Shown here: piece after piece, positions 6,963 to 46,645 of the stretch
How positions within the stretch are numbered: position 1 is the stretch's first letter
How the letters are laid out: every line of letters begins with the position of its first letter
Program-made: the position numbers and the translations under genes
Notes under the pieces: model-generated
Told to the model about the DNA's origin: nothing
Databases searched by the model: none
Seen by the model: the letters and a program-made list of their open reading frames with translations, nothing else
NCBI GenBank assembly: GCA_030603495.1
Contig: JAUVXR010000021.1
Coordinates: 1 to 48,716, forward strand
DNA length: 48,716 nt
Direction: 5' to 3'
Source: a bacterium
GTDB lineage: Bacteria; Armatimonadota; Zipacnadia; Zipacnadales; Zipacnadaceae

Positions 6963-9900
6963 GTGGCCAGTGACGATCTATATCTGGGTATTGACGTCGG
7001 CTCGATAAGCGTCAATCTAGCGGTTGTAGATGCAGAGAATAACGTAGTGGAGGAGCGCTACATCCGCCATCACGGTCAGCCGATGAGGGTGGCCGCCGAG
7101 GCGATCGAAACCGCCGTGGACAAGTACGGCCGCGAGCGCATTGCCGGCCTAGCCGCGACCGGCAACGGGGGCCGAGTGGTAGCTCGCACCCTGGAGGCCA
7201 ATTTCGTCAATGAGGTAGTCGCCCAGGCCACCGCGACTCGTCGGCTTTTCCCGGAAGTTCGCACCGTGATAGAGATCGGCGGTGAGGACTCCAAGCTCAT
7301 CTTTGTCCAAGATTCGTCCGCCCAAAGCAGCGGCGAGGTCGCCGACTTTGCCATGAACGCGGCGTGCGCTGCGGGCACCGGTTCGTTCCTCGACCAGCAG
7401 GCGAGCCGGCTGGGCCTGGCGATCGAGGAGTTTGCGCAACTGGCACTGCAATCCGAGCATCCGCCCCGTGTGGCCGGCCGCTGCAGCGTCTTTGCCAAGA
7501 CCGATATGATTCACCTCCAGCAGAAGGCCACCCCTGAGTGCGATATCGTCGCGGGTCTCTGCTTTGCTCTCGCGCGGAATTTCAAGAGCACCGTCGGCTC
7601 AGGCGTGGACGTCATTCTTCCAATATCCTTTCACGGTGGTCTGGCCGCCAACCCGGGCATGATCCGGGCGATGAAGTCGGTGTTCGAGGCCGATGGCGAT
7701 CAATTCATCATTCCCGAGCACTTCGCAGCAATGGGGGCGATCGGCGCGGTGCTCAAATCCCGCGAGATGGGCATTCACCGGCCTGGCCTAGACAAACTCG
7801 ATGAGCTGCGCCACTATCAAGTTGAAGCGGGCGTCGAAAAGAAGCTTGCGGCCTTACGCCTCGAGCAGTCCACCATCGAAGTCTCCCGGTTGGCTGAGCC
7901 GCAAGTCGAGCCCAGCGAGCGAATACCGGCGTACCTGGGCGTGGATGTGGGCTCGATCAGCACGTGCCTGGCGGTCATTGATGAAGACGCTAACGTCCTG
8001 GCCAAGGAATACCTGATGACTGCTGGCCGCCCGCTCGAGGCCGTACAAGATGGCTTGCGCCGCTTCGGTGAAAAGGTCGGGGACATCGTCGAGATTCGCG
8101 GCGTGGGCACGACCGGCTCGGGACGGTACTTCATCGGCGACGTCATTGGTGCAGACATCGTCAAGAACGAAATCACTGCCCATGCCCGGGGTGCTCTGCA
8201 CGTGGACCCCGAGGTGGACACTATCTTAGAGATCGGCGGCCAGGACAGCAAGTATACCAGCCTCCAGGAAGGCGCAGTGGTGGATTTCGCCATGAACAAC
8301 GTCTGCGCTGCCGGCACCGGCTCGTTCCTGGAGGAGCAGGCCGAGAGGCTGGGCATCTCGATCAAGGGGGAGTTCGCCGAACTAGCCTTTCAGTCAGAGT
8401 CTCCCCCCGACCTGGGCGAGCGCTGTACCGTGTTCATGGAGACGCAGGTCATCCGCCATCAGCAGTCCGGCGCAGCCATCAAAGACCTGTGCGCCGGCCT
8501 GGCCTACTCCATCGTCTTCAACTACCTCAACCGCGTCGTCCAGCACGGTCGCATCGGCGACCGCATCTTCTTCCAGGGCGGCACCGCCCTGAATGAGGCC
8601 GTTGTCGCCGCCTTCGAGAGCGTACTCGGCAAGCCGATTACTGTCCCCCCGGACAACGAGGTGATTGGTGCGATCGGCTGCGCGCTGCTGGCGAGGGACG
8701 AAGCCACCGGCAAGCCCAGCGATTTCAAGGGCTTTGATCTTTCTGAGCGTGGCTACATCATGGAATCATTTGTGTGCGAGGATTGCCCCAACCAATGCGA
8801 GCTCAACAAGGTGACTATGGAGGGGGAGGAGCCGCTCTTCTACGGGAGCCGTTGCGGAAAGTATGATGTCAAAAAGCGCAAGAGCGAGTCGGATCTGCCC
8901 AATCTGTTTGAGCAGCGTGAGCAGATGCTCGTCAACGCGTACCAGCCCACGCGGGAGCTGCCTCCCGATGCCCCCCGTGTGGGCCTGCCCCGTGCCCTGG
9001 AGTTCCATGAGCTGTATCCGCTATGGTATGGCTTCCTGACGGAACTGGGCTGCCAAGTAGTGCTGTCTTCACCGACTAACAAGCAGATCATTCACGAGGG
9101 CGTGCAGAACTCCATTGTCGAGACCTGTTTCCCGATGAAGGTGATGCTTGGACATACTCTGGATGTCTTGGATAAGGGGATTGACTACATCTTCCTGCCC
9201 AGCGTCATCAACCTGGCGAAGACAGACCCGGGGATGACCGACGCCTTCCTCTGTCCATACGCACAGAGCGTGGCCTACACGCTTCAGGCGGCGGTAGATT
9301 TCGAGGCCCATAGCGTGGAAGTGCTCAAACCGGTGGTCTACCTGGCCCTGGGCCGCAAGCATATCATTAGCAGATTGAGGGAGGTCGGCCGGGAGCTGGG
9401 CAGAAGCAAGCGCGATGTTGTCCGGGCAGTGGATGCTGGACTGGCGGCGCAGGAGCGCTTCGAGGAGGGCATCAAGCAGCGCGGCCAGGAGGCTCTGGCG
9501 GAGCTTGCTCCCGAGCAGATCGCCATCGTCTTGGTCAGTCGCTCGTACAACGGTTGCGACCTGGGGGCCAATCTGCAACTGCCCAGCAAGCTGGCGGAAC
9601 TGGGGGCGCTGGCCATCCCTATGGACTTCCTGCCACTGGATGAGGTGCGTTTGCCCGCCGACTGGTTCAATATGTTCTGGGGTTACGGGCAGAAGATCCT
9701 GTCGGCGGCAGAGATAATTTCCCATGACAGACGGCTTCATGCCATCTACCTGACCAATTTCGGCTGCGGCCCGGATTCATTCCTCATCAAGTTCTTCAAG
9801 GAGCGCTTGGGCCGTGAGCCTTCGCTGACTATCGAGCTTGACGAGCATAGCGCCGACGCTGGCATGATCACCCGCTGCGAGGCCTTCCTGGACAGCCTGC

Positions 9901-11180
9901 GGGCCACCCACGGGCGCGAGTTCGAGAGCGGCCGCCACTTCCGTCCACTGACTATCGAGCCGGCCACCGACCGCACCATCCTCATTCCCAACATGAGTGC
10001 CCACGCTGACACTCTGGCTGCGGCAATTCAAGCTTGCGGCGTCAACGCTGAGGTCTTGCCGGAGCCCGATGACGAGACTGTCTACTGGGGGCGCAAGCAT
10101 ACCTCGGGCAAGGAGTGCTTCCCCTGTATTGTGACTACCGGCGACATGGTCAAATATACCAAACGGGAGGACTTCGACCGCGACAAGGTCGCCTTCTTTA
10201 TGGGCGGTTCCGGCGGTCCGTGTCGCTTCGGACAGTATAATACGCTCCAGCGGATGGTCCTGGACGATCTCGGCTACAAGGATGTGCCGATCTACGCCCC
10301 CAACCAGTCGGGCAACTTTTTCAAGGACCTCGGCATCGTCAGCAAGGCTCTGCTGCGTCGGGCCTTTCAGGGCATGGTGGCTGTTGACATGCTCGATAAG
10401 GCGCTACTGGAAACGCGGCCCTACGAACTGGCGCCGGGCGCTGCGGAAAAGATCTATTGGCCTGGCGTTGAGCGGATCTGTGAGACGATCAAGAACGGCG
10501 GGAATATCAGCGAAGCCTTGGCCCAGAGCATCGCCGATTTCAGACAGGTGCCGACAGACCGCTCTGAGCAGCGCCCGCGCATCGGCATGGTCGGCGAGTT
10601 CTATATTCGTACCAATCGGTTCAGCAATCAGAATCTCATACAGAAGATCGAGGCGCTCGGCGGCGAGGTCTGGGTGTCACCGGTTAATGAGTGGTTCTTG
10701 TACCGCAACTTTCGCCGCGGCATGCGCGCCCAACTCGACAGCCAGTGGGGGCTGTGGCTGAAGAACCTGCTCGTTGACCGGGTAATGCAGAACGACGAGC
10801 ACCGCCTTGTCGCGGCCCTCGACGGCTTTGTGCACAACGCCGAAGAACCACCTACTCTGGAGGTGCTATCGTATGCCGCCCCCTATGTACACTGCAGCTT
10901 CGAGGGCGAGGCCATACTGACTGTGGGCAAGGCGGTGGACTTCGCGCACAAGGGCCTCAGCGGTATTGCCGCGGTTATGCCCTTCACCTGTATGCCCGGT
11001 ACTATCTCCCACGCGATTCTCAAGAAGATGCGCCGCGACTTCGACGACATTCCCTTCTTGAACATGGTCTACGACGGCGACGAGCAGGCCACCACCCCGA
11101 CACGGCTGGAAGCCTTTATGTATCAGGCACGTGAGTATATGCACCGCCATGCCAAAGCGGCGGAGCTGACCCGTAGCTGA
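6963..11180 (+). CDS. giant 2-hydroxyacyl-CoA dehydratase/benzoyl-CoA reductase-type activase (BcrAD/BadFG x2 + DUF2229)
   Basis: Relatives are ATP-dependent [4Fe-4S] activases that push low-potential electrons into a partner radical enzyme. In this 1405-residue protein two ASKHA ATPase domains follow each other (about 5-270 and 323-590). Each has its own phosphate loop (GIDVGSIS, GVDVGSIS), an EIGGxDSK motif and both cluster cysteines (CAAGTGSFL and GRCSVF; CAAGTGSFL and GERCTVF). Next comes a CEDCPNQCEL cysteine motif near 604, a DUF2229 region from about 673 (VGLPRALEF), and a long HgdB-like C-terminal part. Such 1400-residue activases are widespread in anaerobes, but their targets are mostly unknown. 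AGGAGG lies ten bases before the GTG at 6963, so I prefer it to the earlier TTG. No dehydratase subunits are nearby. Confidence 0.85.
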   Translation: MASDDLYLGIDVGSISVNLAVVDAENNVVEERYIRHHGQPMRVAAEAIETAVDKYGRERIAGLAATGNGGRVVARTLEANFVNEVVAQATATRRLFPEVRTVIEIGGEDSKLIFVQDSSAQSSGEVADFAMNAACAAGTGSFLDQQASRLGLAIEEFAQLALQSEHPPRVAGRCSVFAKTDMIHLQQKATPECDIVAGLCFALARNFKSTVGSGVDVILPISFHGGLAANPGMIRAMKSVFEADGDQFIIPEHFAAMGAIGAVLKSREMGIHRPGLDKLDELRHYQVEAGVEKKLAALRLEQSTIEVSRLAEPQVEPSERIPAYLGVDVGSISTCLAVIDEDANVLAKEYLMTAGRPLEAVQDGLRRFGEKVGDIVEIRGVGTTGSGRYFIGDVIGADIVKNEITAHARGALHVDPEVDTILEIGGQDSKYTSLQEGAVVDFAMNNVCAAGTGSFLEEQAERLGISIKGEFAELAFQSESPPDLGERCTVFMETQVIRHQQSGAAIKDLCAGLAYSIVFNYLNRVVQHGRIGDRIFFQGGTALNEAVVAAFESVLGKPITVPPDNEVIGAIGCALLARDEATGKPSDFKGFDLSERGYIMESFVCEDCPNQCELNKVTMEGEEPLFYGSRCGKYDVKKRKSESDLPNLFEQREQMLVNAYQPTRELPPDAPRVGLPRALEFHELYPLWYGFLTELGCQVVLSSPTNKQIIHEGVQNSIVETCFPMKVMLGHTLDVLDKGIDYIFLPSVINLAKTDPGMTDAFLCPYAQSVAYTLQAAVDFEAHSVEVLKPVVYLALGRKHIISRLREVGRELGRSKRDVVRAVDAGLAAQERFEEGIKQRGQEALAELAPEQIAIVLVSRSYNGCDLGANLQLPSKLAELGALAIPMDFLPLDEVRLPADWFNMFWGYGQKILSAAEIISHDRRLHAIYLTNFGCGPDSFLIKFFKERLGREPSLTIELDEHSADAGMITRCEAFLDSLRATHGREFESGRHFRPLTIEPATDRTILIPNMSAHADTLAAAIQACGVNAEVLPEPDDETVYWGRKHTSGKECFPCIVTTGDMVKYTKREDFDRDKVAFFMGGSGGPCRFGQYNTLQRMVLDDLGYKDVPIYAPNQSGNFFKDLGIVSKALLRRAFQGMVAVDMLDKALLETRPYELAPGAAEKIYWPGVERICETIKNGGNISEALAQSIADFRQVPTDRSEQRPRIGMVGEFYIRTNRFSNQNLIQKIEALGGEVWVSPVNEWFLYRNFRRGMRAQLDSQWGLWLKNLLVDRVMQNDEHRLVAALDGFVHNAEEPPTLEVLSYAAPYVHCSFEGEAILTVGKAVDFAHKGLSGIAAVMPFTCMPGTISHAILKKMRRDFDDIPFLNMVYDGDEQATTPTRLEAFMYQAREYMHRHAKAAELTRS

Positions 11181-39582: not shown

Positions 39583-40461
39583 GTGCGCCCACCAGCGGTC
39601 TGGCGGGTCGTCTTCAGCGGCCCCAGCGACGCCTACACCAATATGGCCGTTGACGAAGCGATAATGGAGGCAGTGGGGCAAGATATTGTCCTGCCGACCT
39701 TGCGTCTCTACGGGTGGCAGCCGCCAGCGATCTCGCTGGGGCGTTTCCAAAAGGTTGACGGCCAGGTGGGCCTTGACGCCCTGCGCCAGCGGGGCTGGGA
39801 CCTGGTACGCCGTCCTACCGGTGGCCGGGCCATCCTCCACGACGACGAAGTCACTTATTCGGTCTGCGTGCCCCAAGCCGCGCTCAACCACGGCGGCAGC
39901 GTGCTACGTTCCTATCGGGAGCTTTCTCGCGGCATTCGCCGTGGCCTGGAGCTACTGGGTATACAAGCTGACCTGGGCCGTAAGCCCAAGACGCCCAGCA
40001 GCCCGGCACCTCGGGGCCATACGCCGCCCGCCATCTGTTTTGCCCAGTCAACCCGCGCCGATATGGTCGCCGCCGGCCGCAAGATCGTCGGGTCGGCGCA
40101 GGTCCGCAAAGACGGCACCATTCTCCAGCACGGCTCGGTGCCGATGACGTTGAATGTCAACGATCACCTCGCGGTGATGCCCGGCAGCGGCAATACAGGG
40201 CCCACGGGCCGGCTGAGCCAGGCCGCTGTCGGTATCAGCGAGCTTCTGGGCAAACCCGTGAGCTTTGACGAGGTCGCTGAGGCCCTGGTCACTGGGTTCG
40301 CCGAGGCGCTTCACCTGGAGATTGAGCGCAGCCAGCTTAATGAGTCAGAGCAGGCCCGCGCCCACGAACTGCGCACCCACAAGTATGCCACCGACCAGTG
40401 GAACTACCATCGCCCCACCCGTGTCCAGCGAGCCGCGCCCTGCCCCGAGAGATCGGCATGA
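39583..40461 (+). CDS. lipM: lipoyl(octanoyl) transferase, LipM/LplA family
   Basis: 292 residues of the BPL/LplA/LipB fold: TNMAVDEAIMEAV, LPTLRLYGWQPPAISLGRFQ, VRRPTGGRAILHDDEVTYSV. The later AICFAQSTRADMVAAGRKIV and GSAQVRKDGTILQHGSVPM are typical. LipM moves octanoate from acyl carrier protein to GcvH through a cysteine; ICFAQS fits the LipM Cys position, which favours LipM over ATP-dependent LplA. The last 20 or so residues (HRPTRVQRAAPCPERSA) lose family likeness and abut an RHS scrap, so the natural end may have been replaced. GTG start, 41 bases after gcvH. Confidence 0.88.
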   Translation: MRPPAVWRVVFSGPSDAYTNMAVDEAIMEAVGQDIVLPTLRLYGWQPPAISLGRFQKVDGQVGLDALRQRGWDLVRRPTGGRAILHDDEVTYSVCVPQAALNHGGSVLRSYRELSRGIRRGLELLGIQADLGRKPKTPSSPAPRGHTPPAICFAQSTRADMVAAGRKIVGSAQVRKDGTILQHGSVPMTLNVNDHLAVMPGSGNTGPTGRLSQAAVGISELLGKPVSFDEVAEALVTGFAEALHLEIERSQLNESEQARAHELRTHKYATDQWNYHRPTRVQRAAPCPERSA

Positions 40462-40473
40462 CCCAAGGCTCAG

Positions 40474-40602
40474 GGCCCGCCCGTCCCAGATGAACTTGGT
40501 GGTGGCCGCCGATGCCACTGTCTGCCGGCGCAAGCCATCGCCATCATAAGTGAAAGTCGTCACCGCCCCACCGGACAGCGTCACCGTCCGCAGCCGGTTC
40601 AG
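40474..40602 (-). pseudogene. RHS/YD-repeat gene fragment
   Basis: 43 in-frame codons on the minus strand read LNRLRTVTLSGGAVTTFTYD, GDGLRRQTVASAATTKFIWD, GRA. This is the classic YD-repeat pattern (TFTYDGDGLR, KFIWDG). It starts right after the stop of the lipoprotein gene at 40607 and has neither start nor partner sequence. It is a scrap of a large RHS protein gene, left by deletion or recombination. Confidence 0.75.
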
Positions 40603-41899: not shown

Positions 41900-42370
41900 T
41901 TACAGCGGGAACTTGATGTTGGCGGAGACGCCCACGCCGCTGACACCCTTGGGCTTCGTGATATTGGTGGTGGCGACAGGAATCAAGCCGCGGGCCCGGA
42001 TCACTCCGCCCGGCCGCCACTCCAGCTCGGCTACGGCCTGGACCTTCTCGACCTGTTGGGCCGGCCCCATTACCTGGACGGCGCCAACCGCCGTGCCACC
42101 CGCCCCCACCTTCAGGACGGGCACGACCTTGGTCTGGCCAGCGATTTCCGCCGAATGCTGCCCCAGGAGGGTGTTGATGAACGAGTTAATCTCCCCGCCG
42201 AAGTGCTTGACCACATAGGCGACGCCGAATATCTTCAGCGCGCCCTTGAGGATGCCTCCGAGGCTGAGGTTCAGAGCCTGGGCCGGGCGCGGGCCGCTGC
42301 CAAATCCTACCAGAAAGGCAGTCAGGACCACTACCAGGACCAGATAATGCCAGTGGTTTCGCTTTGTCAT
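41900..42370 (-). CDS. secreted protein, shares its C-terminal domain with the upstream gene product
   Basis: 156 residues from the ATG at 42370 (AAGGAG eight bases upstream; two more ATGs lie just before it). A signal peptide (YLVLVVVLTAFLVGFGSGPR) is followed by a short hydrophobic, glycine-rich helix region (GGILKGALKIFGVAYVV). A C-terminal domain of about 72 residues follows (VVPVLKVGAGGTAVGA, VMGPAQQVEKVQAVAELE, SGVGVSANI). That domain matches residues 209-282 of the protein encoded 13 bases upstream. I do not recognise it. Export is likely, and a membrane or surface role is possible. Confidence 0.7.
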   Translation of the reverse strand: MTKRNHWHYLVLVVVLTAFLVGFGSGPRPAQALNLSLGGILKGALKIFGVAYVVKHFGGEINSFINTLLGQHSAEIAGQTKVVPVLKVGAGGTAVGAVQVMGPAQQVEKVQAVAELEWRPGGVIRARGLIPVATTNITKPKGVSGVGVSANIKFPL

Positions 42371-42382
42371 CATCATGTCTCC

Positions 42383-43240
42383 TTATCTAATCCGCAGGTC
42401 GCCCACGCCGGTGACGCCAACGCCCTGGATGCGGGACAGAGTCTGGCCGGGTACCTTCGTGGATATCGGAATATAGACCTCGACATCCAGCGTATTCTTG
42501 TAGCTGGTCTCAAGCTGGGCTACCGCCTGGACTTGGGCCACCGCTGAACTGGGGCCGTTGATGCGCGCGATCCCGATCCGCTTGCCCTCGCCAATGCTCA
42601 GGAGCGGCACGATCTTGTCCTGGTAGGGCTCAGGCGGCTGCCACTCGCCACTCTGTTCCTCCGCCTGTTCCGCGGGCTGCTCGGCCGGCTGCTCTTCTGC
42701 CGGTGGCTGCTCCGCAGGCTGCTCCTCCGCGGGTTGTTCGCCTGCCGGGGTCTCCCATGCCGCATCCACGGTGATCTGCAGGTTTACCGCCCAGATCTCG
42801 GCCAACTCCGCCGCCGTCAAACCCCACCGGTCGGCCTCCTCCTGGTTGACGGTGATCAAGCTGGTCGCCCCGCCTGCTACTACCCAGGCACCATCAACTT
42901 GCTGGGTCTGCACCTGCTCCCCTTGCAGACCGTCGGCCAGGCAGCTGTTGAGCCGATCGGCCACCTGCAGGGCCCGCTGGTAGCCGCTCAGGCCGCCCAG
43001 CGAGGTCTGAACGTGCAGGGGCTGGTTGGCACCCAATACCACTATGCCTTGCTCCTCGCCATCGAGTGTCACTTGCTCCGCCGTGGCGGCCGGACCGCTG
43101 TAGGTCGCGTTCTCGGCGTAAGCCGCCGCCCCCGGGTCGAGCATAGCCCGTAGGGCCGTGCCGCCGTAGAAGGCTACAGCGGCCAGTGCGAGCGTGGCTA
43201 CGCCTGCCGCCAGCCGCCTCGTGAGGATGCGTCCACTCAT
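42383..43240 (-). CDS. exported protein: periplasmic domain, Pro-Glu-Gln linker, shared C-terminal domain
   Basis: 285 residues. An uncleaved anchor or signal (LAAGVATLALAAVAFYGGTA) is followed by a domain at about 60-160: HVQTSLGGLSGYQRALQVAD, ADRWGLTAAELAEIWAVNLQ. From memory this resembles the periplasmic module found before MscS-type channels in cyanobacteria. Residues 160-205 are a low-complexity linker of EEQPAEQP repeats. Residues 209-282 are the domain shared with the next gene: KIVPLLSIGEGKRIGIARI, VAQVQAVAQLE, QGVGVTGVG. AAAGGAGG before the ATG at 43240 is near-perfect. The longer frame to 43735 is an antisense artefact over the nuclease gene. Confidence 0.75.
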   Translation of the reverse strand: MSGRILTRRLAAGVATLALAAVAFYGGTALRAMLDPGAAAYAENATYSGPAATAEQVTLDGEEQGIVVLGANQPLHVQTSLGGLSGYQRALQVADRLNSCLADGLQGEQVQTQQVDGAWVVAGGATSLITVNQEEADRWGLTAAELAEIWAVNLQITVDAAWETPAGEQPAEEQPAEQPPAEEQPAEQPAEQAEEQSGEWQPPEPYQDKIVPLLSIGEGKRIGIARINGPSSAVAQVQAVAQLETSYKNTLDVEVYIPISTKVPGQTLSRIQGVGVTGVGDLRIR

Positions 43241-43430
43241 TGTCTTGACCTCCTTTGTCGCTACGGAATCTGTTTCTCTACTATATATACAACTGACTGG
43301 CCGAATCTCCTCCGTCCAGCTGGCGATTTTCCTGGCGACCTCGCTCGAAATCACCGCGCAGGAGGAACTGCCTACCCCGCCCGCGAATCTACTGGTAAGC
43401 CCATCGCGCCATTCCGGGTAGGACACTGAT

Positions 43431-44540
43431 ATGGCTAAACTGCGCCTGGTACACACCGCAGACGTCCATCTAGGGCATTCCAGCGGGGCCTTTGGCACCG
43501 CTGCTGCCGACCACCGCCGGCGTCTGCTCGAGGCCTTCGAGCGCTGCGTCGCCTGCTGCACCGAGCGTGCCGCGCAGCTCTTTATCACCGCTGGCGATCT
43601 GTTCGATAGCCCGCAGCCCCCCGAGGCCACGGCCCAGCGGGTCCAGGCATCCCTGCGCAAGCTGGCCAGCGGCTCGCCTCCCGTCTCGGTCGTGCTGGCC
43701 CCGGGCACGCACGACCGTCTGGAGGCAGGCAGCATCTACGAGCGCTGGCAAACCGAAGGCCTGCCTCCGGGAGTGCATCTCCTCAGTATTGCCGCGCCGA
43801 CGGTCAACTTTCCGGAATTGGGCGTGACTGTGACCTTCGCCGAGGATGCCAACGAGCTGCGCCGCGACCCCGACGCTCGCTTCAATATCGGTATCATCCA
43901 CGGTTCGGTGCAGATACCTGGCCTGGTGGACGAAGACCACGTTATCGTCACTGAGGACCAGATTGCCACCAGTGGTATGGACTACGTGGCCCTGGGCCAT
44001 TGGCACAGCTTCGGCGACTACTCGCAGGATGACGTGGTAGCGTTATATCCGGGCTCACCGGAAGTTGTGGCACTCGATCAGACGAGCCGGGGCCAGGCAC
44101 TGGTTGTGGACCTGGATGAAGATGGACAAGTCACTTGGGAGCGGGTTACCACCGGTGTTCTCCAGTACGCTGAGCAACAACTCGATCTGGCCGACTTCCG
44201 CAGTGCCGAGGAGATCGCCCAGCAGCTTCTGCAATCCGCCGGCCCCGATACCATACTCGTTGCTCGGCTGACCGGTATCGTCCCCGCTGATCTGGTTGTG
44301 GACCCCGACGAGATCCTGGCACGGGTGGAGAGTCAGTTCTTCCGGATACGTCTGTCTGACGACAGCCACGCCGACTGGGACGAGGCTGCATCGGAGCCAC
44401 TGGGTCTGGTCCCCGGGCGCTTCCGGCAGTTTATGCAGGAACGGTTCGAGGCTGCGGAAAGCGACGAAGAACGACGGAGAATCGAGCAGGCGCGTAGCCT
44501 GGGCCTGGCTCTGCTCGCTGGCCGGGAGGTTCTCCCGTGA
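43431..44540 (+). CDS. SbcD/YhaO-like DNA repair exonuclease (metallophosphoesterase)
   Basis: 369 residues. The calcineurin-like motifs appear in order: HTADVHLGH (D, H), TAGDLFD, APGTHDR, IIHGSVQ and ALGHWHS (GHxH). It belongs to the Mre11/SbcD group and most resembles B. subtilis YhaO. The usual GNHD is GTHD here, replacing the metal-ligand asparagine by threonine. The C-terminal part (about 240-369) would contact the ATPase partner (YADQ-like region and a terminal helix FRQFMQERFEAAESDEERRR). The stop overlaps the GTG of the next gene (GTGA), so the two are translationally coupled, as expected for an Mre11-Rad50-like pair. Confidence 0.87.
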   Translation: MAKLRLVHTADVHLGHSSGAFGTAAADHRRRLLEAFERCVACCTERAAQLFITAGDLFDSPQPPEATAQRVQASLRKLASGSPPVSVVLAPGTHDRLEAGSIYERWQTEGLPPGVHLLSIAAPTVNFPELGVTVTFAEDANELRRDPDARFNIGIIHGSVQIPGLVDEDHVIVTEDQIATSGMDYVALGHWHSFGDYSQDDVVALYPGSPEVVALDQTSRGQALVVDLDEDGQVTWERVTTGVLQYAEQQLDLADFRSAEEIAQQLLQSAGPDTILVARLTGIVPADLVVDPDEILARVESQFFRIRLSDDSHADWDEAASEPLGLVPGRFRQFMQERFEAAESDEERRRIEQARSLGLALLAGREVLP

Positions 44541-46645
44541 TCCTACAGCGGCTCAGCGTGCACGATTTCGCCTGCCTGGGCGATGCCGAATTCGAGTTCG
44601 GCAGCGGCCTCAACATCATTCGCGGCCCCAACGAAGCCGGTAAGTCTACCCTCCAGACCGCCTTCCTTACGCTGTTCTTCGTTAAGGCCAATACCACCAG
44701 CAGGGACTGGCACCGATTCCAGAGCTGGAGTGCCCGCCAGATGTACAGCCTGTCAGCGGACTTTGCAGCCACAGGCCGGCAGTGGCGGCTGACAAAGGAT
44801 TTCGCTGCGAAGAAAGCCTCGCTTGCGGATCTCACCTCCGGCGAGGAGTGGACCGATCACGACCAAGTGCAGGAGAAGCTGGACGAACTGCTCGGCACCG
44901 GCTCCCGGGACGTCTACGAAAGCACCGCTGCCGTTCGCCAGCAGCAGGTGGCCATGCTCGGAGCCAAGGACGAGATAGGGCAGATGCTCCAGCAGGCCAT
45001 TTCCGGCACGCCTGCCGGAGTCAGTGTGCCTGACATTCTCAACAAGCTCGACAAAGCCCTGAGCGACTTGCAGCGGGGCCTGCCCCCTCACCATGCTCCC
45101 AAGAATCCGGGCCCTTTGGTCATCGTCAGGGACCAGATTACGACACTCGAGGGCAGGCTGAACGACCTTGCCCAAGACCGGGATAAGGTCACTGACGCTC
45201 GCCGGCGCTTGCGCGAGGCCGAGGAGGAACTTGAGGAGCTCCAGCCCCGCGTTGAGCAGACTGATGACCTGTTGCAGAGGGGAGAACGGCGCCGCAAGCT
45301 GGAGGAACAGCTCAAGGACATCGAAAGTGCTTGGACCAGTCTGCACGAGCGAGTTGACAAAGCTGAGGGGCTGGCGGGTAAGATTGATGAGATCATCGGT
45401 ACCGAGGTTGGTGAGAAGACCGGAGAGGAGTCGGCCCGAGAAGTCGCGGAGAAAGCGGCGAAGCTTCAGGACGAGGAAAGACAGACCGCTGGCAAGATCG
45501 CTGACATAGACCAGAGGCTGCGCCAGACCGATGAGGCGATGGCTGCGGCCAAAGTCCGGGGTTGGGTCCGGCCGGCCGTAATTGCAGGCGCGGTCTCAAT
45601 CGTCGCTGGTCTCGCCGGTGCGCTGTTCTGGTCGCCGTGGTGCCTGCTGCTGACCGTAGGGGGAGCGGTAGTTGCCGTGGTGGGTCTTGTGCGGCGTGCA
45701 CCCCGAGGCTACACAGCCCTGCTCGAGGAGCGTGGTCACCTTGAGCGTGATTTGGCGGCCGAGCGGGGGAAGCTTCCGAGGCTACGCGAGCAGCTTGCCG
45801 ATCTGCTAAAGACGACGGGCGTAGAGAGTATTGGCGAACTGCGCTCGCTCGCAGATGTGGAGAGCGAGCTGCGCGGCACGTTGGGTTCAGATGCCCTTGA
45901 GGAGCTCAAGCAAGAACTCGCTCAGTCGGCAATGGAGCGCGCCACAATCCAGGAGCAACTCAAATCGCCTAATCTTGCCCACCTCGAGCTCGATCCGCTC
46001 AAGATTGAGGGGCTGCGCAGGCAACTGGTGCGCGACCAGGAGCGCCACAAGTCGCTACAGGGTGATCAGATTCGGACTAGCACCATTCTCAGCACTTCGG
46101 AGTATGACGCCGAAGAGCAGTTGCGCACTCAGGAGCAACTAGAGGCAGCCCAGGAGCGGCAGGCTCGACTGCACGAGAAAGAGACGGTCTACCAGCTTAC
46201 GCAGGAGGTACTTGCTGAGGCCTACCAGCAGACCCTGGCCCACACAACCCAGGCCATCGAGCCGCGCGTAGCTGAGCTGCTCAAGGCTATCACCCAGGGG
46301 CGCTATGAGAGGGTGGGGGTGGCCGAGGACAGCTTTGAGCCGGTGGTCTTCTCACCGGAGAAGAACGGCGAAGCTGAGCCGGGCGACCTCAGTTGTGCCA
46401 CCCGCGAACAACTCTACCTGGCGGCGCGGCTGGCGCTGACTGAGGTGCTCTGGCCCGATGAGAGTCCACCGCTGCTACTCGATGATCCGCTGGTCAACTT
46501 CGACCCCCAGCGCGCCGCCGCCACACTCGAACTGTTAGCTGGCTTCGCCCAGTCGCGCCAGATACTGTACTTCACCTGTTCGTCGCGCTTCGACGAGTAC
46601 GCCGCGCACATCATCGAACTGCCGACGCCAGAATCGGGCGCGTGA
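44537..46645 (+). CDS. YhaN-like SMC/Rad50-type ATPase with membrane hairpin
   Basis: 702 residues. An ABC-ATPase head is split between the N-terminus (Walker A IIRGPNEAGKSTLQ, residues 31-39) and the C-terminus (signature-like ATREQLYLAARLAL, Walker B LLLDDPLVNFDP near 646). Two coiled coils (about 190-330 and 390-580) surround a strongly hydrophobic pair of segments at about 347-390 (AVIAGAVSIVAGLAGALFW, WCLLLTVGGAVVAVVGLV). The Rad50 zinc hook CxxC is absent. B. subtilis YhaN has the same plan, so the tip of the coiled coil is probably anchored in the membrane. It forms a unit with the nuclease gene just upstream. Confidence 0.87.
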   Translation: MILQRLSVHDFACLGDAEFEFGSGLNIIRGPNEAGKSTLQTAFLTLFFVKANTTSRDWHRFQSWSARQMYSLSADFAATGRQWRLTKDFAAKKASLADLTSGEEWTDHDQVQEKLDELLGTGSRDVYESTAAVRQQQVAMLGAKDEIGQMLQQAISGTPAGVSVPDILNKLDKALSDLQRGLPPHHAPKNPGPLVIVRDQITTLEGRLNDLAQDRDKVTDARRRLREAEEELEELQPRVEQTDDLLQRGERRRKLEEQLKDIESAWTSLHERVDKAEGLAGKIDEIIGTEVGEKTGEESAREVAEKAAKLQDEERQTAGKIADIDQRLRQTDEAMAAAKVRGWVRPAVIAGAVSIVAGLAGALFWSPWCLLLTVGGAVVAVVGLVRRAPRGYTALLEERGHLERDLAAERGKLPRLREQLADLLKTTGVESIGELRSLADVESELRGTLGSDALEELKQELAQSAMERATIQEQLKSPNLAHLELDPLKIEGLRRQLVRDQERHKSLQGDQIRTSTILSTSEYDAEEQLRTQEQLEAAQERQARLHEKETVYQLTQEVLAEAYQQTLAHTTQAIEPRVAELLKAITQGRYERVGVAEDSFEPVVFSPEKNGEAEPGDLSCATREQLYLAARLALTEVLWPDESPPLLLDDPLVNFDPQRAAATLELLAGFAQSRQILYFTCSSRFDEYAAHIIELPTPESGA

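Follow-up and report, generated by a model that had tools for sequence, protein, structure and literature searches.

Two adjacent genes of an Armatimonadota genome (order Zipacnadales) encode secreted proteins that share a C-terminal domain, and we found this domain to be that of Vpar_0645 of Veillonella parvula, where its gene lies in the lptD cluster. New here are the tie of the domain to the Vpar_0645 family and, across several lineages of diderms, its linkage to lptD and SLH-porin genes. We consider it rather probable that the two products are paralogous envelope proteins, each carrying a divergent YbbR-like domain, that assist outer-membrane assembly in an accessory or scaffolding role. 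We refer to this domain as the Vpar_0645 domain, a label given here, or simply as the C domain. The window in which the genes were found comprises the 48,716 nucleotides of contig JAUVXR010000021.1, and all positions below without a locus label refer to it.

Both genes are encoded on the reverse strand. The upstream gene (43240–42383) specifies 285 residues, which comprise a hydrophobic N-terminal signal or anchor, an alpha/beta envelope module of periplasmic type (the N domain, residues ~45–165, 42746–43108), a linker rich in E, P and Q (residues 166–205, 42626–42745) that is modeled with low confidence and varies in length among relatives, and the five-stranded C domain, whose nearest fold is YbbR (residues 206–283, 42392–42625). 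A sequence-only reading had already described the periplasmic domain and the linker. The downstream gene (42376–41900) opens with three consecutive ATGs and encodes 158 residues from the first, or 156 from the third at 42370. We prefer the third as the likelier start, because the Shine-Dalgarno-like AAGGAG at 42384–42379, which overlaps the upstream stop codon, then lies 8 bases off. The earlier figure of 12 bases between the genes is correct when counted to the third ATG, whereas the gap to the first is only 6. Upstream of the first gene, the Shine-Dalgarno-like AAAGGAGGT stands at 43256–43248, 5' of the ATG; both ribosome binding sites, read directly from the sequence, agree with that reading.

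The downstream protein combines a signal peptide with a helix (residues 40–71, 42164–42259) that is first hydrophobic and then amphipathic, following the family pattern LGGxLKxGGIGxLVxxFGxxINxxINxL, and ends in the C domain (residues 80–155, 41912–42139), here in the orthologue-like form that it has in common with Vpar_0645. In the upstream protein, the different N domain takes the place of this helix. Neither protein has a lipobox cysteine: the downstream protein lacks cysteine altogether, and the sole cysteine of the upstream protein is inside the N domain. SLH and porin models of Pfam matched neither of them.

The two C domains are homologous. Local alignment with BLOSUM62 gave a score of 101 for residues 206–279 of the upstream protein and 80–150 of the downstream protein, whereas shuffling the downstream domain 5000 times gave scores that averaged 28.9 (sd 5.4) and peaked at 64. 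This bears out the proposal of a shared domain in these tandem secreted proteins. All the motifs listed in that proposal are present, although GP comes sooner than stated, about 21 instead of 30 residues after the domain begins. Iterated HMM searches gathered 71 domain copies from 40 stretches of related genomes and the window, and in their alignment one P, two G, the GP and a second P are invariant or nearly so. These invariant or near-invariant columns form a pattern, K-[VI]-V-P ... G-P-x-x-x-V ... P ... V-x-G-V-x-V-[ST], common to both window proteins and the V. parvula SKV38 member (locus L121). Searches of Pfam, NCBIfam and PDB sequence families with single proteins and with 30 diverse members returned no match above chance, in line with the sequence-only reading, which knew of no named domain with this pattern. 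The domain is probably divergent YbbR-like, however, and so not wholly without relatives.

This probable kinship emerged from predicted structures. AlphaFold2 modeled the domain blocks of the downstream protein mostly at pLDDT 88–95 (68-row alignment) and the domain of the upstream protein at 86–97 (34 rows). Both models place the same elements in the same order, namely a long strand, a strand, a short helix at the GP motif, two strands and a final strand, and in the downstream model the helix of residues 40–71 precedes them. The two C-terminal regions are therefore predicted to share a fold rather than to fold differently, with the caveat that the models share alignment rows and are not independent. 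For both, the best VIA-align match was the YbbR-like structure 4qdy (Z 5.3 over 71 and Z 5.4 over 74 residues, 3.6 A), which is below the safe range; other YbbR entries and ribosomal L25/TL5 came lower in the lists, and Foldseek against the PDB gave nothing at E <= 0.001 for either model.

We compared profiles as well, using a YbbR profile built from true YbbR domains of related genomes. Hhalign assigned it a probability of 58–60% of matching the C domain, over 35–38 columns around G-x-x-x-V-x-x-V. The profile score was 24.3, and none of 200 column shuffles scored as high (mean 8.9, sd 1.7, maximum 15.1); the N-domain profile reached 7.7. The Pfam YbbR model (PF07949) did not match the domain, and a search of 41 genomes for the YbbR family did not return the window locus. 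The C domain is probably YbbR-like, judging from these models and profiles, rather than a YbbR member. It resembles YbbR (PF07949; 4qdy, 3lyw; CdaR/YbbR proteins) in its best fold match and in the weak profile match at G-x-x-x-V-x-x-V, but the window domains have additional conserved K-V-V-P and V-G-V-S motifs, and members of the family carry one domain per protein, or two in fusions, where YbbR proteins have three or so repeats. A literature search, judged by title, found no connection between YbbR and LptD.

The tandem arrangement is not peculiar to the window. In all 31 listed loci with two copies, the copies are adjacent and on the same strand. The form with the N domain comes first in 24 of them, the order is reversed in six (L058 and L152, counted separately here, cover one stretch), and the remaining locus has two single-domain forms. 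In five genomes (G048, G077, G067, G080 and G090), two units of helix plus domain are fused in one protein. Tandem copies thus recur, as the sequence-only reading had suggested should be checked. Such double fusions are encoded, for example, at L072:5369-6187, L073:5049-6038, L163:3141-4232 and L164:3362-4609, some with long charged tails. The domain tree has few columns, and we used only two of its groupings: an upstream clade of 28 copies with both N and C domains plus one single-domain copy (L060_4224), split from the rest with support 97/96, and a group (100/90) that unites 24 downstream copies from the wider clade around the window. Together with the recurrent adjacency, this split indicates that the pair is an old duplication whose copies were repeatedly kept together.

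The N domain has a wider use of its own. It had no Pfam match, apart from one protein with a sub-threshold DUF3370 score, and it occurs without the C domain, sometimes twice per protein, in other secreted-looking Armatimonadota proteins of ~380 and 620 residues (L154:3215-4360, L157:2355-4214, L158:3030-4874 and L159:3072-4970). As far as sampled, it is an envelope module of Armatimonadota.

When 101 related Armatimonadota genomes were searched with a profile of 30 diverse members, 83 proved to carry the C domain; within the window's order, nearly all carriers have exactly two copies. A scan of named genomes added 186 confirmed loci. The best 80 of these belong to Armatimonadota, Abditibacteriota, Negativicutes (including Veillonella, Megasphaera and Sporomusa) and Synergistota, with a few unclassified or unplaced records; the tree places the records 42_11 and GBS-1 with Synergistota. 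Among these best 80 loci, on which absence from monoderms was also judged, the bearers are outer-membrane (diderm) lineages and unplaced records. As expected for an outer-membrane bacterium, the window genome has two genes of the LptF/LptG kind, and it encodes several SLH proteins.

The member with published data is that of V. parvula. In strain SKV38 (L121), the domain gene (7800-8246) is followed by genes at 8343-9467 and 9505-11058, the product of the last falling narrowly short of the threshold for LptD_N and for LptC. This span (7800-11058) measures 3259 bp and is thus exactly as long as the published lptD cluster with Vpar_0645, Vpar_0646 and LptD (CP001820.1:780878-784136; Poppleton et al. 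2017, PMC5491611). Mapped from SKV38 to DSM 2008 through this agreement in length and the order of the genes, the SKV38 domain gene is Vpar_0645. Poppleton et al. detected both Vpar_0645 and Vpar_0646 in outer-membrane and surface fractions, and described the former as an uncharacterized protein of the outer-membrane fraction that lacked domains and clear homologues (PMC5491611); our literature search found no later paper naming it. Vpar_0645 aligns with the downstream protein of the window in its signal peptide, hydrophobic-amphipathic helix and C domain. It differs in being a single gene followed by Vpar_0646 and lptD, while the window contains a paralogous pair without an lpt neighbor.

Linkage to lpt genes recurs across lineages. 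In most Veillonellaceae loci, the domain gene is followed by a Vpar_0646-type gene and LptD, though in Sporomusa, Pectinatus and most Megasphaera lptD does not adjoin it. The order in Synergistota is Vpar_0646-type gene, domain gene, LptC and an OstA/LptD-like gene, and matches to LptD_N or LptC were found in adjoining genes of both Negativicutes and Synergistota. In Abditibacteriota (L148), the domain gene stands between a porin-like gene and an LptD-like gene, and in one Armatimonadota family (f23) the order is LptF/G, DUF3084, RuvX-like, SLH-porin, domain gene and LptD-like gene. The LptD-like proteins of all four lineages match each other by BLAST. Those of Abditibacteriota and Armatimonadota are very divergent (L148:2325-3848, L085:3771-5441 and L074:8381-9448): Pfam LptD models match none of these three, one of which (L085) has a marginal DUF3769 match, whereas BLAST to V. 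parvula LptD does. The DUF3084 and RuvX-like genes between LptF/G and the SLH-porin recur as a cluster in several Armatimonadota (L074:3616-5503, L130:3495-5501). The Vpar_0646-type proteins, which are secreted, VYG/LFG-rich, 300–490 residues long and without a Pfam match (L121:8343-9467, L119:6791-7828, L153:6712-7755), are homologous between Negativicutes and Synergistota (E 8e-44 and weaker). Kept beside the domain gene in both lineages, they add another uncatalogued partner to the lptD locus.

These neighborhoods raise the question of whether, in diderm Terrabacteria, Vpar_0645-type proteins stand in for LptE, plugging or assembling LptD without being lipoproteins, with the window pair as a duplicated form. 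Poppleton et al. suggested such a role for Vpar_0645/0646 (PMC5491611), and outer-membrane lipoproteins such as LptE are, according to a review, well conserved only in Gracilicutes. The proteins would share with LptE a proposed position beside LptD and a functional slot left unfilled in diderm Terrabacteria. The adjacency to lptD in Negativicutes, and to LptD-like, LptC or OstA genes in Armatimonadota, Abditibacteriota and Synergistota, also favors it. We nevertheless find this equivalence doubtful. Seven Armatimonadota genomes that are 93–99% complete (G049, G052, G059, G070, G072, G098 and G017) have LptF/LptG and lack the domain, which weakens an obligatory Lpt partnership and argues for an accessory protein rather than an obligatory LptE substitute. 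Furthermore, Poppleton et al. name vpar_0646 and lptD, and not 0645, as conserved in all Negativicutes (PMC5491611). A beta domain with a long helix showed no resemblance to LptE here: there is no sequence match, and the downstream protein of the window has no lipobox.

A different partner is suggested by the single-domain loci of Armatimonadota and unplaced records. An SLH protein is encoded immediately upstream, on the same strand, in 10 of 48 such loci (a count in which two genomes appear twice), and no SLH protein was found elsewhere among the ~440 genes of these loci. The neighbor matches Pfam SLH and Porin_4 in L074, and SLH in L110. The domain could accordingly serve as a scaffold or partner of SLH-porins of the OmpM type, and with them of the tether between outer membrane and cell wall, rather than of LPS transport, and the window genome does encode SLH proteins of the same envelope compartment. 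We hold this to be unlikely, since no SLH gene adjoins the domain gene in any of 37 Negativicutes loci. The porin may merely share the neighborhood, as LptB/F/G genes lie in the same Armatimonadota clusters, and, in contrast to OmpM-type proteins, the window proteins have neither an SLH domain nor a barrel.

Around the window pair itself, no lpt or porin genes were recognized among the reading frames, and the neighborhoods of the tandem pair vary across the window's order. This variation, together with that of the domain architectures, would fit a general periplasmic YbbR-like interaction module with several unrelated uses, in which case the work of the tandem pair in the envelope would have nothing to do with outer-membrane assembly. 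YbbR domains are indeed used in other ways, for example in CdaR. Against this reading, the best 80 matches are confined to diderm lineages and unplaced records, and linkage to lpt or porin genes is found repeatedly in separate lineages; we regard it as less probable, if slightly better than either of the two above.

The divergent neighbor of the pair is an SbcD-like gene that starts at 43431 on the forward strand, 190 bases away. Its product and the next form an SbcD/SbcC-like pair (43431-46645), the second protein having a two-segment hydrophobic stretch mid-protein, like a membrane-tethered nuclease of the YhaO/YhaN type. The sequence-only reading had guessed at a functional link, in which the tandem proteins might for instance anchor the nuclease to the envelope. 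The divergent layout is indeed found in the window and in seven loci of its family (L034-L040), but it is missing from the pair's surroundings in all other sampled families (L041-L051, L053, L054) and in every other lineage, and the two pairs have no domain in common. We therefore rejected the link as lineage-local synteny and consider it very improbable. Elsewhere in the window, a short reverse-strand frame (40345-40584) resembles an RHS/YD-repeat fragment (FTYDGDGLRRQTV...FIWDGRAL) and lies antisense over the 3' end of a forward-strand gene (39583-40461) whose product is lipoate-protein-ligase-like and may have its C-terminus altered by the overlap.

Our preferred explanation remains an accessory or scaffold role in outer-membrane assembly, based on gene linkage in several lineages and the published localization of Vpar_0645; the earlier suggestion that the pair works in the envelope is supported as well. 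The downstream protein would represent, in this lineage, a family of single-domain proteins found in diderm Terrabacteria. Once secreted by its signal peptide, it would be held at the membrane or in an oligomer by the hydrophobic-amphipathic helix, placing the domain in the periplasm. In the upstream paralogue, a flexible linker would join the C domain to a second envelope domain, which in turn follows an N-terminal membrane segment, and the two C domains may act together. The domain would then be an interaction module at an outer-membrane assembly site, contacting LptD/Lpt machinery, SLH-porin (OmpM-type) machinery or both. We infer these physical partners and the precise step from gene linkage, which does not show contact, and the YbbR kinship from the comparisons above. 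That the pair bridges both membranes is speculation.

Diderm Terrabacteria rely on Bam and Lpt homologues to build their outer membrane, yet a 2024 review states that they lack lipoproteins of this membrane such as LptE. The family described here bears on the question of which proteins replace them. In a bolder version that we put forward only tentatively, the YbbR-like proteins, though not lipoproteins, would partner LptD or OmpM-type porins throughout diderm Terrabacteria in the role that lipoproteins have in E. coli-like bacteria, and the Armatimonadota pair would be a heteromeric form, arisen by duplication, that links inner and outer membrane through its flexible linker. Vpar_0645 now has a family, a predicted fold, a distribution over several diderm lineages and a recurrent linkage to lpt and SLH-porin genes. 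Because the domain recurs in diderms of the "Gram-positive" side, often beside outer-membrane assembly genes, it probably takes part in building or organizing their outer membrane.
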